DNA of 64,000 nt from Cohnella sp. SGD-V74 (GTDB lineage: Bacteria; Bacillota; Bacilli; Paenibacillales; Paenibacillaceae): contig NZ_PVYW01000017.1 in NCBI RefSeq assembly GCF_003001675.1, forward strand, positions 62,001 to 126,000, written 5' to 3'. Of the stretch, positions 36,433-42,336 are shown piece by piece (the first letter of the stretch is position 1; each line of letters begins with the position of its first letter). A program made the position numbers and the translations under genes. Below the pieces are notes generated by a model. That model had not been told where the DNA came from. It worked only from the letters and a program-made list of their open reading frames with translations, and did not search any database.

Positions 36433-36473
36433 GGCGCAAGGTAACGAAAAATAAGCCGTTATCCGCTTGCGCC
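36433..36473 (-). terminator. long hairpin over the nasC stop codon
   Basis: Minus-strand GGCGCAAG and CTTGCGCC, continued inward by TAACG/CGTTA, form a stem of about 14 pairs with a ten-base loop containing the T run. It covers the nasC stop. It may end or stabilise the transcript; it is not a classical terminator because the T run is in the loop. Confidence 0.35.
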
Positions 36474-38600
36474 GCGGCCCAAAGGCACGACGCGCACGGC
36501 GCTCACCTTGAAGTCGGGCATGCGGCAGTAAGGATCGAGCGCGGGGTTGGTGACGAGATTCACGTTCTGCGCGCCGCCCCAATGCATCGGAACGAACACC
36601 GTATCTTCCCGGATATCTTCGGTCACCTTGCTGCGCACGACGACGCTTCCGCGGCGAGACGTCACCTGCACGAGCACTCCGTCGGTAATGCGATACCTGT
36701 GGGCCGTACGGGGATGAATTTCCATGACGTTCTCGATTTCCCTGGCAGCCAGAGCGGGACTGCGGCGCGTCTGCACTCCGGTCAAGTAATGGGAAAGCAG
36801 GCGTCCGTTCGTCAGCAGCAGCGGATAATCTTCATCCGCGTCCTCTTCCGGCGGGCGATTGTCCACCGCGGCGAATACCGCCCGTCCGTCGCCGTGGGCG
36901 AAGCCGTCCTCGAACAAGCGCTTCGTGCCGGGATGATCCGGAGAAGGGCAGGGCCAGTACACGCCTTCCTCTCTCCGCAGCCTGTCGTACGTAATGCCGT
37001 AATAATCCGCCACCCCTCCGCGACTCGCGGCGCGAAGCTCGTCGAACACTTGCTCCGGCTCATGAAACGCGAATTTGTCTCCGCAGCCCAACGCCTCCGC
37101 CAGCTCGCACAGAATCCGCCAATCGTGCCGGGATTCTCCCGGGGCGGGACGCGCCGCCTCCCGGAGCAGCACTCGCCCCTCCAGGTTGGTCATCGTCCCC
37201 GTATTTTCCATATAGGACGTCACGGGGAGCACGAGATCGGCCAGCTTCGCCGTCTCCGACAGGAACATATCCGCCACGGCCAGAAAATCGAGCCCGGCCA
37301 GCCCTTCCTCCACGAGCGCCGCGTTCGGATTGGACACGATCGGATTCGAGCCCATGATCAGCATCGCTCGAATCTCCTTGTCGTACGTCAGCTTCATCAT
37401 CTCGTAGGCGGATACTCCCTTGCCGGGCAGATCGGCCGGATCGATCCCCCATACCCCGGCCACGTATTCGCGGTCCCGGGGGTTCTCGATCAGCCGATAA
37501 CCGGGAAGCTGATCGGCCTTCTGTCCGTGCTCCCGGCCTCCCTGTCCGTTGCCCTGCCCGGTCACCGCGCCGTAGCCGCAACTGTCCCGTCCGATCTTGC
37601 CCGTCGCAAGAATGAGATTGAGAAAATTGCGCACCGCCATATGTCCGTCGCTATGCTGCTCGACGCCTCTCGCCGTAAAAATCATGCCCGTGCCCGCCTT
37701 GCCGTAAGCGATCGCCGCCCGGCGAATGTCGGCCGCCGCGACGCCGGTCAGCTCCGCGATCTCCTCCAGGTCGAGCTTGGAGACATGTTCTCGCAGCTCT
37801 TCGAATCCGGTCGTGCGCTGGCGAATGAAAGCTTCGTCCGTCAGCCCTTCTTCGAACACGACTTTCAGCAAGCCGTTCGCCAGAGCCGCGTCGGTACCCG
37901 GCTTGACCCGCAGATGCAGATCCGCCAGAGCCGCCGTTCCCGTCGTCCGCGGATCGATGACGATGATGCGCGCGCCGTTCTCTTTCGCCTTCGTGAAGTA
38001 GGGCATAAGCGTAGGCTGACACTCCGCGATGTTTGTTCCGGCGAGGATGATGCATTCCGCTTGCGGAATTTCCGAAAGCCGATTCGTCAGCCCGCGGTCG
38101 ATGCCGAACGTCTTCACCCCCGCCGAGGCGGCCGCCGACATGCAGAAGCGTCCGTTATAGTCGATATACCGGGTACGCAGCGCAATCCTCGCGAACTTCC
38201 CCAGCAAGTAGGCGGATTCGTTCGTAAGCGATCCGCCCCCGTAGACGCCGACCGCGTCCGGGCCGTGCATCCACCGTACGGCGAGCAGGCGCTCGCGCAG
38301 CACGCGATACGCCTCGTCCCAAGAGATGCGAACGAAGCCGCCGTCGACTTTCAGCAGCGGATACAGCAGCCGCTCCCGGCTCGCCGCATGCTGATGGGCA
38401 TTTTTGCCCTTGACACACAAGCGCCCCTCGGAAGCCGCGTTCGGCGCCCCTTCCGCCCGGTAGACCGTACGTCCGCCGAACGGACTCGCCGCCTCCTCGA
38501 CCGTCATTTTGCACTGGACGCTGCAGTACGGGCATTGCGTCAGCGCGCTTCCCGTCCCTGCATTCGTCGCCAAAGCGTCCTTTTCGACTCCGGTTTCCAT
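36459..38600 (-). CDS. nasC: assimilatory nitrate reductase catalytic subunit
   Basis: 713 residues, close to B. subtilis NasC. The [4Fe-4S] motif CPYCSVQC (23-30) plus CVKGKN near 58 opens the protein. Molybdopterin oxidoreductase domains follow (GVYGGGSLTNESAYLLGKF, CIILAGTNIAECQPTLMPYF), then the dinucleotide-binding domain (HPRTAHRYRITDGVLVQVTSRRG). It reduces nitrate to nitrite in the cytoplasm with electrons from NasB. No Tat signal is present, which excludes the periplasmic Nap and formate-dehydrogenase types. It follows nasB by 27 bases. Confidence 0.9.
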   Translation of the reverse strand: METGVEKDALATNAGTGSALTQCPYCSVQCKMTVEEAASPFGGRTVYRAEGAPNAASEGRLCVKGKNAHQHAASRERLLYPLLKVDGGFVRISWDEAYRVLRERLLAVRWMHGPDAVGVYGGGSLTNESAYLLGKFARIALRTRYIDYNGRFCMSAAASAGVKTFGIDRGLTNRLSEIPQAECIILAGTNIAECQPTLMPYFTKAKENGARIIVIDPRTTGTAALADLHLRVKPGTDAALANGLLKVVFEEGLTDEAFIRQRTTGFEELREHVSKLDLEEIAELTGVAAADIRRAAIAYGKAGTGMIFTARGVEQHSDGHMAVRNFLNLILATGKIGRDSCGYGAVTGQGNGQGGREHGQKADQLPGYRLIENPRDREYVAGVWGIDPADLPGKGVSAYEMMKLTYDKEIRAMLIMGSNPIVSNPNAALVEEGLAGLDFLAVADMFLSETAKLADLVLPVTSYMENTGTMTNLEGRVLLREAARPAPGESRHDWRILCELAEALGCGDKFAFHEPEQVFDELRAASRGGVADYYGITYDRLRREEGVYWPCPSPDHPGTKRLFEDGFAHGDGRAVFAAVDNRPPEEDADEDYPLLLTNGRLLSHYLTGVQTRRSPALAAREIENVMEIHPRTAHRYRITDGVLVQVTSRRGSVVVRSKVTEDIREDTVFVPMHWGGAQNVNLVTNPALDPYCRMPDFKVSAVRVVPLGRGASG

Positions 38601-38627: not shown

Positions 38628-40688
38628 TCAAGCGTTAGCCGCGGCGCCGAGCTGCGGCCGCCGGCCCATGAGCCAGTATTCCCTGCCGTCCGGATCCAGC
38701 AAAGTCTCCCGAACCGCCGTCAGTCCTTCCCGCTCCAGCCACTGCCACACCGCCTCGCCGTAGAACGCGTTCATCCTGTACCCGTGCAGGCAGGAGACGA
38801 CCATCTCGACCGCCTCTTCTTCGGTCTGAGCGACGACGAGCAGTTGTGCCTGCTTCACCGGACGTCCCGCATATCCCCCCGCGTAGATTTCCCAGCCCGC
38901 CGGCGCTTCGGCCAGTCCGAAATCCCGCACGAGCAGCATACTCCCTTCGGCCACGGCAGAATCGACGGCGATGCGGACGTCGCCCGGCATTCGGACAGCG
39001 GGCAATCTGCGCTCCAGTTCGGCGCCGACGCGCGCCGCGGCTCCTTCAGCCCCTCCTCCTTCGCCGATGAACAGCTTTACCGGCCGGCCGGCGTCCGGGG
39101 CCGCCGAATAATACCGGACCGCTCCCTTGCACAACGCGCAGCCTTCGGGCCGTCTCCATCCCAGCTTAGCTGCCGTCAGCTCGAACGAAGCGAAGCCTCC
39201 CTCGGCGACCGCTTCCTTGAGCGCCGCATGCCCCAGCTTCGTGCAGCCGCATACCGGAGGCTCGCTCTCCGGCTCTCCGCCCGCTCCGCCGAGCGCCAGC
39301 TTCAGAACCGCCGCCACCATCGGCTTGCAGCCGCCGCAGGAGCCGGACGCCTTCGTCCGGTCTCTGACCTGTTCGACCGTACTCAGTCCTTCTTCGCGAA
39401 CGGCGGCCAGAATCGCTCCCTTGGTCACCCCGTTGCATTGGCAAACCGTCTCCCGCTCCGGCATCGCCGCCGCTGCCGCGGACGGTCCGCCGCTCTCCGT
39501 ACGCGCTTCGACGCGCTCCAGCGCGGATACGTCGGCTCCCCGCTTCAGCAGACTCAGCAGCGAGTTGCTCTCTTCTACGTCGCCGAACAGGATCGCCCCC
39601 GACACTTTGCCGTTTCTCGCGATCACTTTCTTGTACGTTTTGCGAATGCCGTCGTACTGAAGAAGCGCGGTGTCCGAATCCCGCTCGTTCACGCCGCCCG
39701 CGGAAAAGACGTCGACTCCCGACACCTTAAGCTGCGCATAAGGAATCGAGCCTCTGTACGGCTCTGTCTCAAGGCCGCACAGCTTTCTCGCCAGCACCTT
39801 GCCTTGCTCGAAGAGCGGAGCGACGAGTCCGTACACCGTCCCCTCGTGCTCGGCGCATTCTCCGACCGCGTATACGCCCGGCACGTTCGTCTCCATCCCG
39901 CCGTCGACGACGAACGCGCGGTTCGTCCAGATGCCTCCGGACTTCGCCAGCTCGATGTTCGGCCGAATGCCGACGGCCATCACGATCAGGTCGGCCTGCA
40001 GCCGAGAACCGTCGGAGAAAGCGATTCCTTCCGCACGCTTGCGCCCGACGATTTTCTCGGTCGTTTTGCTGAACAGGAACCGCATGCCCTGGTCTTCCAG
40101 CTCGGCGCGAAGCAAATCCGAAGACATCGCGTCCAGCTGCCGATTCATCAGATAAGGCGCGTTGTGGACAACCGTCACATCCATTCCGAGGTTGAGCAGC
40201 CCGCGCGCCGCCTCCAGGCCGAGCAGCCCTCCCCCGATGACGGCCGCTTTCCGGAAGATCGTCGCCGCTTCCATCATCCGCTCGCAATCGTCCACGCTGC
40301 GAAACCCGATCACGCCCGGCTTTCCCACGCCGGATAACGGCGGAATATAAGCGGAAGACCCCGTCGCCAGAATCAGCTTGTCGTAATCCGCCCTCATTCC
40401 CGTCGCCGTCTCCACCTTGCGGGATTGCGCATCGATCCGGACGACGGGATGGCCCGCGTGCAGGCGAATTCCCTTCTCCTCGTACCAATTCCAGTCGTGG
40501 GTAACGATATCGTTCAAGGACGCGTCGCCTTGCAGCACCTTGGACAGCATGATCCGGTTGTAATTCGGGCGCGGCTCGCTTCCGAAAATCGTGATCTCGT
40601 ACAAATCCGGCGCCAGCGCGCAAATTTCTTCCACGCATCTGACACCCGCCATGCCGTTGCCGATCATAACAAGCTTCGGTCTGCTCAT
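38628..40688 (-). CDS. nasB: nitrate reductase electron-transfer subunit (NADH/FAD, BFD-type Fe-S)
   Basis: 686 residues. FAD/NAD domain: VMIGNGMAGVRCVEEI near 6 and AAVIGGGLLGLEAARGL near 148. Two BFD-like [2Fe-2S] regions follow with CQCNG...GSCGGC and CGC...CALC. The last 110 residues resemble the ferredoxin-like half-domain of nitrite/sulfite reductases, but no siroheme cysteine motif is present, so it is NasB rather than the NirB nitrite reductase. It passes NADH electrons to NasC. The ATG at 40688 opens MSRPKLVMIGNG; the ribosome site GGGAG is 13 bases away, so weak. Confidence 0.87.
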   Translation of the reverse strand: MSRPKLVMIGNGMAGVRCVEEICALAPDLYEITIFGSEPRPNYNRIMLSKVLQGDASLNDIVTHDWNWYEEKGIRLHAGHPVVRIDAQSRKVETATGMRADYDKLILATGSSAYIPPLSGVGKPGVIGFRSVDDCERMMEAATIFRKAAVIGGGLLGLEAARGLLNLGMDVTVVHNAPYLMNRQLDAMSSDLLRAELEDQGMRFLFSKTTEKIVGRKRAEGIAFSDGSRLQADLIVMAVGIRPNIELAKSGGIWTNRAFVVDGGMETNVPGVYAVGECAEHEGTVYGLVAPLFEQGKVLARKLCGLETEPYRGSIPYAQLKVSGVDVFSAGGVNERDSDTALLQYDGIRKTYKKVIARNGKVSGAILFGDVEESNSLLSLLKRGADVSALERVEARTESGGPSAAAAAMPERETVCQCNGVTKGAILAAVREEGLSTVEQVRDRTKASGSCGGCKPMVAAVLKLALGGAGGEPESEPPVCGCTKLGHAALKEAVAEGGFASFELTAAKLGWRRPEGCALCKGAVRYYSAAPDAGRPVKLFIGEGGGAEGAAARVGAELERRLPAVRMPGDVRIAVDSAVAEGSMLLVRDFGLAEAPAGWEIYAGGYAGRPVKQAQLLVVAQTEEEAVEMVVSCLHGYRMNAFYGEAVWQWLEREGLTAVRETLLDPDGREYWLMGRRPQLGAAANA

Positions 40689-40723: not shown

Positions 40724-40790
40724 AAAAAGCCCACCCCATACAGAAGAAGGGAGCGGGCGTCGTCGCCGGTTTTGGGCACGCCGTTGTGCC
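40724..40790 (-). promoter_or_regulatory. ANTAR-type dual-hairpin antiterminator and terminator, nasB leader
   Basis: On the minus strand hairpin 1 is GGCAC-AACGGC-GTGCC (40775-40790): a hexaloop with A at 1 and G at 4. Hairpin 2 is GGC-GACGAC-GCC (40756-40767), G at 4 but G at 1. Hairpin 2 shares bases with the 5' arm of a terminator, GCCCGCTCC (40750-40758) pairing with GGGGTGGGC (40729-40737), then TTTTT. This order is that of NasR/EutV-controlled leaders. Confidence 0.65.
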
Positions 40791-40808
40791 TCTGTCGAGC
40801 CTTTCGAT

Positions 40809-40837: not shown

Positions 40838-40854
40838 TGTCAAGTATAGTTACA
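40838..40854. promoter_or_regulatory. GlnR/TnrA-type box 1
   Basis: TGTCAAGTATAGTTACA fits TGTNA-N7-TNACA. Its centre is about 44 bases upstream of the inferred nasB start, close to the position from which TnrA activates. Confidence 0.7.
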
Positions 40855-40900: not shown

Positions 40901-40917
40901 TGTTAAGTTTATTGACA
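40901..40917. promoter_or_regulatory. GlnR/TnrA-type box 2
   Basis: TGTTAAGTTTATTGACA fits TGTNA-N7-TNACA. Its last six bases are the narK -35 hexamer, so binding could activate or block that promoter. Confidence 0.7.
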
Positions 40918-40940
40918 TATAGTTTGCATTTTTTTATAAT
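40912..40940 (+). promoter_or_regulatory. narK promoter
   Basis: Perfect TTGACA (40912-40917), 17-base spacer and perfect TATAAT (40935-40940). Such a strong core promoter fits control by downstream termination as well as by the overlapping nitrogen box. Confidence 0.85.
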
Positions 40941-40980
40941 GTGAATCGGGTTCACAATGTCGTGACCGAAATACATTTCC

Positions 40981-41053
40981 GGCGCACACAAAGAAGTGTC
41001 GCCTTCCGGCAACGAGGCCGCAAAGCTCCCTGTAGGGAACTTGCGGCCTTTTT
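40981..41053 (+). promoter_or_regulatory. ANTAR-type dual-hairpin antiterminator and terminator, narK leader
   Basis: Hairpin 1: GGCGCACAC-AAAGAA-GTGTCGCC (40981-41003), one bulged C, hexaloop with A1 and G4. Hairpin 2: CGGC-AACGAG-GCCG (41007-41020), hexaloop with A1 and G4. Terminator: GGCCGCAA (41016-41023) with TTGCGGCC (41041-41048), inner TCCC/GGGA, then TTTTT. Hairpin 2 and the terminator share GGCCG, so an ANTAR protein holding hairpin 2 would prevent termination before narK. Confidence 0.8.
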
Positions 41054-41100
41054 CGCGCATTGCGATGCTGATCTATAACTCGTCTTCCGAAGGAGCGATG

Positions 41101-42336
41101 ATGCAGATGGAAAATAAAAGTTTCTGGCAAAGCGGGCACAAGCCCACTCTCTTCAGCTCGTTTATGTACTTCGACATGAGCTTCATGGTCTGGGTGCTGA
41201 TCGGACCGCTCAGCGTCATCATCATGCAGGATTATCCGATGGACCCGATTCAGAAAGCGAATCTCGTCGCGCTCCCCGTGCTCGGTGGTTCGATTCTCCG
41301 GCTCGTGTTCGGTTTCCTTACCGATTATATCGGTCCTAAGCGAACCGGTCAGCTCGGTCTGATCCTGACTACGATTCCTCTCGTCTGGGGATGGCAGTTC
41401 GTCAGCTCCCTCGACGATCTGTACATCGTGGCGCTGCTGCTCGGCGTCGCCGGAGCGTCGTTCGCCGCCGCTCTGCCGCTGGCCAGCCAATGGTATCCGA
41501 AGCAGCATCAAGGCTTGGCGATGGGCATCGCGGGAGCCGGCAACAGCGGCACGGTGTTCGCCACGCTGTTCGCCAACCGGCTCGCCGGCCATTACGGCAG
41601 CTGGGAGGCCGTGTTCGGCCTGGCGCTCATCCCGATCGTCGCCGTCCTGATCGGCTTCTCGATCTTCGCCAAGGACAGTCCGAACCGCCCCGCTCCGAAG
41701 AAGCTGTCGCAATACGCCAATGTGCTGAAGCAGCGCGACGCTTGGCTGTTCTGCATTTTGTACAGCGTCACGTTCGGCGGATTCGTCGGCATGTCCAACT
41801 ACTTGACGATCTTCTTCAACTCCCAGTACGGCCTGTCCGCCGTCAGAGCCGCGGACTTCACGACGATCTGCGTCATCGCGGGCAGCTTCTTCCGGCCGAT
41901 CGGCGGCTTCCTCTCCGACCGGATCGGGGGCGTGCGCATGCTTACCTTTCTGTACGCCGGAGCGTTCGCCATGTTCGCCTGCGTCTCTACGCTTCCTTCA
42001 CTCCCCATGGTCATCGTCTACCTGTTCGCCGGCATGATGTGCCTCGGCGCGGGCAACGGCTCGGTGTTCCAGCTCGTTCCGCAGCGTTTCGGAGCGGAGA
42101 TCGGACTGGTCACCGGCATCGTCGGAGCCGCGGGAGGCTTGGGCGGATACGCCCTTCCGCTCTTGCTCGGCAGCTTGTACAAATCTTCGGGCTCCTACAC
42201 TCCCGGCTTCCTGGTCATCGGGGGCGTCGCGCTCGCCTGCGTCGCTTTGCTGCTGATCGTGCAAGGCTCCTGGAAGCGCACATGGAACGCCAGAGGCGCC
42301 GCCGCCAAAGTCGAGAACGTCGGCCAGGCGACTTGA
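41101..42336 (+). CDS. narK: nitrate/nitrite MFS transporter (NarK/NasA family)
   Basis: 411 residues and about 12 membrane segments. The nitrate-porter signatures are present: FMVWVLIGPLSVIIMQDY in the first helix, GSILRLVFGFLTDYIGPKRTG, and AGAGNSGTVFATLF with the glycine-rich helix 5. It imports nitrate for the NasBC reductase on the opposite strand, as nasA does in B. subtilis. Three ATGs follow AAGGAG; I took the middle one because its spacing is best. A perfect 16-pair terminator follows the gene. Confidence 0.9.
   Translation: MQMENKSFWQSGHKPTLFSSFMYFDMSFMVWVLIGPLSVIIMQDYPMDPIQKANLVALPVLGGSILRLVFGFLTDYIGPKRTGQLGLILTTIPLVWGWQFVSSLDDLYIVALLLGVAGASFAAALPLASQWYPKQHQGLAMGIAGAGNSGTVFATLFANRLAGHYGSWEAVFGLALIPIVAVLIGFSIFAKDSPNRPAPKKLSQYANVLKQRDAWLFCILYSVTFGGFVGMSNYLTIFFNSQYGLSAVRAADFTTICVIAGSFFRPIGGFLSDRIGGVRMLTFLYAGAFAMFACVSTLPSLPMVIVYLFAGMMCLGAGNGSVFQLVPQRFGAEIGLVTGIVGAAGGLGGYALPLLLGSLYKSSGSYTPGFLVIGGVALACVALLLIVQGSWKRTWNARGAAAKVENVGQAT

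Follow-up and report, generated by a model that had tools for sequence, protein, structure and literature searches.

A narK leader in Cohnella sp. SGD-V74 with the layout of an ANTAR antitermination target

Introduction

How is narK, which encodes a nitrate/nitrite MFS transporter, controlled in Cohnella sp. SGD-V74, where hairpins with six-base loops and an intrinsic terminator lie between the promoter and the start codon? The locus is part of a 64 kb stretch (64,000 nucleotides) that was analysed as a whole and is called the window here; coordinates are those of the window unless a contig (C1, C10) of the 8.24 Mb draft genome is named. Antitermination by ANTAR proteins is an established mechanism in other bacteria. 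In the eut leaders of E. faecalis, EutV acts by dual-hexaloop antitermination; according to published work, a single ANTAR dimer touches one hexaloop after the other, and the spacing of the loops matters (PMC3369931, PMC8934654).

With a probability of about 0.88, the narK leader is a site of antitermination under ANTAR control, at which the ANTAR protein of this genome, P0001, would open expression of narK, nasBC, and nirB in response to nitrate or nitrite. The core of this finding is a new example of a known mechanism; new are a third hairpin, a predicted pseudo-receiver protein for which neither a NIT domain nor a neighboring NasS was found, and a constant TrpD2-like neighbor. In a search of the open literature, none of the papers listed described ANTAR control of nitrate genes for either Paenibacillus or Cohnella; neither genus is named in the main text of PMC3369931, whose supplementary genome tables may list some of these leaders.

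Table 1. Coordinates of the regulatory features and genes considered in the text.
Feature	Position	Strand	Details
nasC, assimilatory nitrate reductase catalytic subunit	36459-38600	-	NF047855, 1161.5 bits
nasB-like nitrate reductase electron-transfer subunit	38628-40676	-	N-terminal part NirB-like
nasB leader terminator	40724-40758	-	GCCCGCTCCC..GGGGTGGGC + T5; overlaps P2
Covariance-model match, nasB leader	40752-40794	-	
nasB leader P2	40756-40767	-	GGC / GACGAC / GCC; loop position 1 is G, not A
nasB leader P1	40775-40790	-	GGCAC / AACGGC / GTGCC
GlnR/TnrA-type box	40838-40854		Upstream of divergent nasB promoter-like site
GlnR/TnrA-type box	40901-40917		TGTTAAGTTTATTGACA; overlaps narK -35
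narK promoter	40912-40940	+	-35 TTGACA 40912-40917, 17 nt, -10 TATAAT 40935-40940; 12/12 consensus bases
Box-like sequence	40940-40956		TGTGAATCGGGTTCACA; overlaps expected transcript start and 5' arm of hairpin 1
Hairpin 1	40947-40968	+	CGG-gt-TCAC / AATGTC / GTGACCG; loop 40956-40961, A1 and G4
Hairpin 2 (P1 of dual motif)	40981-41003	+	GGCG-c-ACAC / AAAGAA / GTGTCGCC; loop 40990-40995; from sequence and folding
Covariance-model match, narK leader	40981-41023	+	
Hairpin 3 (P2 of dual motif, putative antiterminator)	41007-41020	+	CGGC / AACGAG / GCCG; loop 41011-41016
Intrinsic terminator	41015-41053	+	Stem 41015-41048; T run 41049-41053 (five T); excludes hairpin 3
narK, nitrate/nitrite MFS transporter	41098-42336	+	ATG at 41098 or 41101; AAGGAG 41090-41095
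Covariance-model match, nirB leader	C1:201860-201904		Outside window
TrpD2/YbiB-like gene (345 aa)	C1:202710-203747 (L002:12711-13748)		Outside window; directly downstream of P0001 gene

The narK Leader

The original prediction placed two six-base loops, AAAGAA and AACGAG, upstream of narK, each with A at position 1 and G at position 4 (A1 and G4), and sequence and folding agree on both. It further held that a terminator follows directly 3' of the hairpins and is rivalled by the second of them. This is borne out: the 3' arm of P2 (41017-41020) lies within the 5' arm of the terminator and, because these four bases are common to both stems, hairpin 3 and the terminator are mutually exclusive. 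By folding, the terminator is much more stable than the antiterminator hairpin and is favored in the complete leader; while its 3' arm is absent, the three leader hairpins, including the upstream hairpin 1 considered below, co-fold at -25.4 kcal/mol. Compared with its own shuffles, 40980-41058 has the more stable fold (z -3.94). A rule scan that called for two A..G.. hexaloops at a spacing of 18-26 nt, a minimum of four pairs in the first stem and three in the second, and a terminator overlapping the second hairpin returned a single match on both strands of the window, the narK leader; the same scan gave no match in 20 dinucleotide shuffles of the window and, when the intergenic stretch alone was shuffled 1000 times, a match in two of the shuffles.

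The loops of hairpins 2 and 3 are 21 nt apart, compared with 22-25 nt in 29 nirB leaders picked by rule and 24 nt (A29 to A53) in the eutP leader as given in the EutV papers. The linker between the two hairpins measures 3 nt when the whole stem of hairpin 2 is counted and 7 nt when only its inner four pairs are counted; for the E. faecalis eut leaders, PMC3369931 gives linkers of 5-12 nt and strongly reduced induction of eutP with linkers of 3 or 14 nt. Rfam gave nothing in the window at the gathering threshold, and relaxing the threshold brought up nothing but weak matches that fall far short of the cut-offs (RF00627, 22.9 versus 70 bits; RF02098, 14.6 versus 50 bits); the tests for ANTAR targets are therefore based on models built in this analysis. 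The narK product itself scores 304.5 bits against TIGR00886, slightly below the cut-off of 311.7, and its nearest match among the named genomes found is from Cohnella xylanilytica (85%; Paenibacillaceae).

Related Leaders in the Genome

The nasBC operon, divergent from narK, has its own leader of the ANTAR-target type (40724-40794, minus strand). The G at the first loop position of its P2 is also present in four of the six related Cohnella nasB leaders shown, and P2 folded alone prefers a four-base loop. A dual-hairpin covariance model built from 39 seed leaders (40 stretches minus L024) finds three leaders in the draft genome, those of nirB (E 7.1e-8), nasB (E 1.2e-5), and narK (E 1.8e-4), all three of which are among the 39 seeds; the next match has an E value of 0.21. 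In a less circular test, a model made from 24 nirB leaders of other genomes only has the nasB leader as its best match in the window (E 0.0034) and the narK leader as its third, where the 10.8 bits (E 0.9) of the latter are level with a partial match and not significant; the narK type is poorly matched by a nirB-only model because its linker is shorter and its P1 is bulged. Since the leaders of this type found in the genome all stand before genes for nitrate or nitrite transport or reduction, we infer that the signal is nitrate or nitrite.

Conservation and Co-occurrence among Relatives

Conservation of the loop bases in related leaders, on which the original prediction had staked itself, was found: among 129 hexaloop hairpins in narK leaders, 89 have both A1 and G4, against a background of 269 of 2697 counted over the full length of these loci on the corresponding strand. 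The 129 hairpins come from 39 leaders, each taken from promoter to start codon and picked blind to loop sequence, at loci that are related and not independent; 14 of 53 distinct leaders, having no promoter match, were left out of the count. P1 has two-sided changes in five of its seven pairs, and its covariation score and share of paired cells exceed those of all 500 shuffles, both in rows that were picked for pairing; the count of five such pairs, by contrast, is nothing unusual, being reached by 237 of the 500 shuffles.

The protein and the RNA were cross-tabulated in 148 genomes of the family, with E < 1e-30 to P0001 taken to mark a full-length ANTAR homologue. At an RNA threshold of E <= 0.001, 97 genomes have both, two the ANTAR protein alone, one the RNA alone, and 48 neither; removal of the 26 genomes that gave seeds changes these counts to 71, 2, 1, and 48, and at E <= 0.01 they are 98, 1, 4, and 45. 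The genome with the ANTAR protein and no RNA match at 0.01 is G104, and those with the RNA and no full-length homologue are G070 at 0.001 and additionally G005, G027, and G096 at 0.01. Another ANTAR protein, matching P0001 in the domain only, is present in 18 of the 49 genomes scored as lacking the homologue, and six of these 18 have RNA matches between 0.009 and 0.1.

Gene order follows a recurrent pattern. At each of the 30 best ANTAR loci, nirB and the ANTAR gene are divergent, and a leader with both hairpins lies between the two in 29 by rule, with a similar arrangement in L012 by eye. Among 36 named narK loci, 17 bear an ANTAR gene, and in 10 of the 17 it is directly upstream of narK on the same strand; Paenibacillus species such as P. 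cymbidii and P. darwinianus have the ANTAR gene directly before narK and its leader. Some species occur both among the family genomes and among the named records, and the counts from the two sets are thus not independent. From these sequence comparisons, recognition of the leader RNA by the ANTAR protein is strongly supported.

The ANTAR Protein and Its Signal

An ANTAR regulator with a nitrate sensor had been foreseen, and the first half of that expectation stands: P0001 (208 aa; PF03861, E 6.5e-17), whose gene is beside nirB and divergent from it, is the sole ANTAR protein found in the genome. The second half does not, as no NIT domain was found; a profile search of the genome for NIT (PF08376) gave no matches, and the control genomes gave none either. 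P0001 matches the ANTAR family alone in Pfam and, with no NIT domain found, is not a NasR. A NasS-like gene was not found beside the ANTAR gene. The genome encodes seven PF13379 proteins, none of them adjoining; NasS is a cytoplasmic NrtA-like sensor, and a distant NasS is unlikely because what looks by eye like a signal or lipoprotein sequence is present in all seven matched frames. One further frame on C10 (near 215000, plus strand; locus L009) appears by eye to fuse a short excisionase-like DNA-binding N-terminus to a substrate-binding-protein part, and it adjoins a binding-protein gene.

The AlphaFold model of P0001 has a pLDDT of 88.3 and a pTM of 0.69, and the best solved structures matched to it by Foldseek are EutV with RNA, EutV, Rv1626, and AmiR (TM 0.41-0.59 by query length). 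The protein is accordingly predicted to consist of a pseudo-receiver followed by ANTAR, with a fold closest to that of EutV. Residue 60, which the strand order of the model suggests is equivalent to the phospho-acceptor, is Q in 2, H in 12, D in 5, and N in 5 of 24 aligned homologues, and a conserved phospho-acceptor aspartate of the EutV kind is thus absent at this position in the 24. Because the aspartate position is not conserved in the receiver-like N-terminal part, P0001 is probably an unphosphorylated pseudo-receiver; AmiR is one also. Other residues are invariant in all 24 homologues: W83, W84, C85, S93, C97, D104, G105, M111, and W118.

This invariance bears on the identity of the signal. 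A rather unlikely alternative is that the leader is an ANTAR target whose protein answers to something else (nitric oxide, redox, or the general nitrogen status), with C85 and C97 of the pseudo-receiver as one possible route; the unchanging WWC (83-85) and C97 would suit such a sensor, as would the failure to find a known nitrate sensor domain or NasS partner. The company that the system keeps argues otherwise, for the three leaders found in the genome all precede nitrate/nitrite transport or reduction genes, and distant ANTAR relatives at two alphaproteobacterial plasmid loci also lie beside nitrate/nitrite genes, together with a substrate-binding protein. Nitrate or nitrite remains the preferred signal.

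A TrpD2-like Neighbor

The gene next to that of P0001 encodes a TrpD2/YbiB-like protein (Table 1). TrpD2-like matches (E <= 1e-40) are present in 73 of the 148 family genomes, and a closer type of ANTAR protein (E <= 4.7e-52) is present in 73 of 148, exactly those that bear the TrpD2-like gene. In 73/73 the pair lies side by side on one strand, with a gap of -1 to 86 bases; the other 26 genomes with a full-length ANTAR protein have no TrpD2-like match at that threshold. The pairing is also found at 5 of the 17 named ANTAR-bearing narK loci (L128, L132, L133, L143, and L145), two of which belong to another family, Thermoactinomycetaceae. On plasmids, TrpD2 relatives among the matches listed are all below 60% identity, with the named ones mostly annotated trpD, and two annotated ANTAR loci have no TrpD2-like neighbor; because the plasmid searches gave no linked pair, the ANTAR-TrpD2 linkage rests on the family genomes and the five named loci.

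The strict pairing provides a concrete candidate for the sensor. Tentatively, and with the odds against it, the TrpD2/YbiB-like protein may be an ANTAR partner that replaces NasS or AmiC, sensing nitrate/nitrite or a nucleotide signal and holding or releasing the ANTAR protein. If true, this would be a new kind of antitermination sensor and would give a function to an orphan phosphoribosyltransferase-like family.

GlnR/TnrA-type Boxes and an Upstream Hairpin

The position of the narK promoter places the expected transcript start near 40947. Perfect copies of TGTNA-N7-TNACA, which we take to be a GlnR/TnrA-type motif, occur three times in the window (0.17 expected), all in the nasB-narK intergenic region. 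The box over the narK -35 has the strict consensus in six of ten narK leaders and one mismatch in the other four (by eye). These boxes suggest additional nitrogen-status control at initiation, with GlnR as a candidate regulator judged from the motif; the claim of a second regulatory layer in the original prediction fits these boxes, the only ones in the window. Binding of GlnR to a Paenibacillus nif promoter is mentioned as unpublished data in PMC4774088.

Hairpin 1, at the expected transcript start, was absent from the original prediction and recurs in many relatives; taken alone, its fold is just moderately more stable than those of its shuffles (z -1.9). A three-hairpin screen was applied to 20 narK leaders (that of the window, those of three loci, and 16 of the 36 of a second locus set), and its rule was met by 18, L124 and L128 failing. 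In the alignment of the 18, hairpin 1 keeps CACAA.G..GTG in every row, an invariance that is not independent of the screen, whose rule already demanded A1, G4, and the closing C-G pair in hairpins 1 and 2 and G4 in hairpin 3. Two-sided changes are found in four of the eight pairs of hairpin 2 and in none of hairpin 1. Left out of the screen were Cohnella sp. OV330-type leaders (L047-L049, L061, L129, L130, L142, and L144), plain dual leaders (e.g., L051-L055 and L131), tandem leaders (L050 and L132-L135), named-species duplicates, and loci without such a leader (e.g., Anoxybacillus, Geobacillus, L121, L125, L127, and L138-L141).

The leaders outside the screen differ in architecture. The OV330-type lineage keeps hairpins 1 and 2 and has no third hexaloop, and any working pair in these leaders would have a loop spacing of 35 nt. 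By eye, two units of dual motif plus terminator stand in tandem before narK at L050 and L132-L135, and in other relatives the narK leader has a plain dual motif.

In the narK leader of the window the loops of hairpins 1 and 2 are 34 nt apart and, because this is not near the spacing in eutP, the favored reading of hairpin 1 is an additional loading site, probably one that recruits the ANTAR protein early. It is less likely still than a different signal that hairpin 1 is no ANTAR site at all and only reflects half the palindrome of a GlnR/TnrA operator lying over the transcript start. Its 5' arm does overlap a perfect TGTNA-N7-TNACA box, and its pairs lack two-sided changes in the 18 aligned leaders; but of the ten narK leaders compared by eye, only this one has the full box at that position, and the nine others have an incomplete box and retain hairpin and loop, so that hairpin 1 is present in 10/10. 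The loop also follows the ANTAR rule, with AA.G and the closing CAC/GTG unchanged in 18/18 chosen leaders (A1, G4, and the closing C-G pair being part of the selection rule). A loading site for the ANTAR protein remains the preferred role of hairpin 1.

Proposed Mechanism

Transcription would begin at the strong-looking promoter just upstream of the leader, with the terminator before narK as the default fold. The 208-aa ANTAR protein would bind the leader at its hexaloops as the RNA is being made, recognizing A1 and G4, with hairpins 2 and 3 as the working pair; by holding hairpin 3 it would block the terminator and let the polymerase pass, as for EutV. The same protein would control nasBC and nirB through their leaders of the same type, and its activity would be set by nitrate or nitrite.

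That the narK leader is an ANTAR antitermination target, the central claim of the original prediction, is supported: an ANTAR protein is encoded in the genome and the loop bases are conserved in related leaders. A plain attenuator, in which a constitutive terminator trims narK expression and the upstream hairpins are idle, would suit the greater stability of the terminator but is very improbable in view of the strong enrichment of A1 and G4 in hexaloops picked blind to sequence, the covarying stems, and the almost perfect tracking of the ANTAR gene by the RNA, a co-occurrence that nearly refutes it.

Comparison with Known Systems

A close parallel is EutV, which shares with the narK system two A1/G4 hexaloop hairpins and a P2 that overlaps the terminator (PMC3369931, PMC8934654) and is the best match to the modeled fold of P0001. 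The narK system differs from it in being associated with nitrate rather than ethanolamine genes, in the third hairpin upstream, in a receiver-like domain without a conserved phospho-acceptor, and in having a TrpD2-like gene rather than a kinase next to the regulator.

NasT-NasS of Paracoccus and rhizobia likewise joins a receiver-like plus ANTAR protein with nitrate/nitrite genes (PMC3795266). Alignments of P0001 with the listed ANTAR proteins from alphaproteobacteria cover 82-94% of its length and show 26-29% identity, and on two alphaproteobacterial plasmids the ANTAR relative is followed by the substrate-binding protein, as NasT-NasS would be. Unlike at these two plasmid loci, the next gene in the systems described here is TrpD2-like (in 73/73 genomes with the closer ANTAR type) or narK (at 10 named loci). 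Klebsiella NasR, a NIT-ANTAR protein acting on the nasF leader, is also concerned with nitrate assimilation through leader hairpins and a terminator (PMC3369931); unlike NasR, P0001 has no NIT domain that could be found, nor does its genome. AmiR of the Pseudomonas AmiR-AmiC pair is among the best matches to the predicted fold of P0001, receiver-like domain included; unlike AmiR-AmiC, the system has a TrpD2-like neighbor rather than an AmiC-type binding protein, and the genes controlled are others.

Significance

The regulon found in this genome, three leaders and one protein, is small enough for full testing. The third hairpin is relevant to the question whether, as modeled in PMC8934654, an ANTAR dimer first loads on a single hexaloop and passes from there to the next. 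More broadly, RNA antitermination very probably governs nitrate assimilation across a large group of soil-dwelling Gram-positive bacteria, and control of the GlnR/TnrA type may lie beneath this RNA layer.
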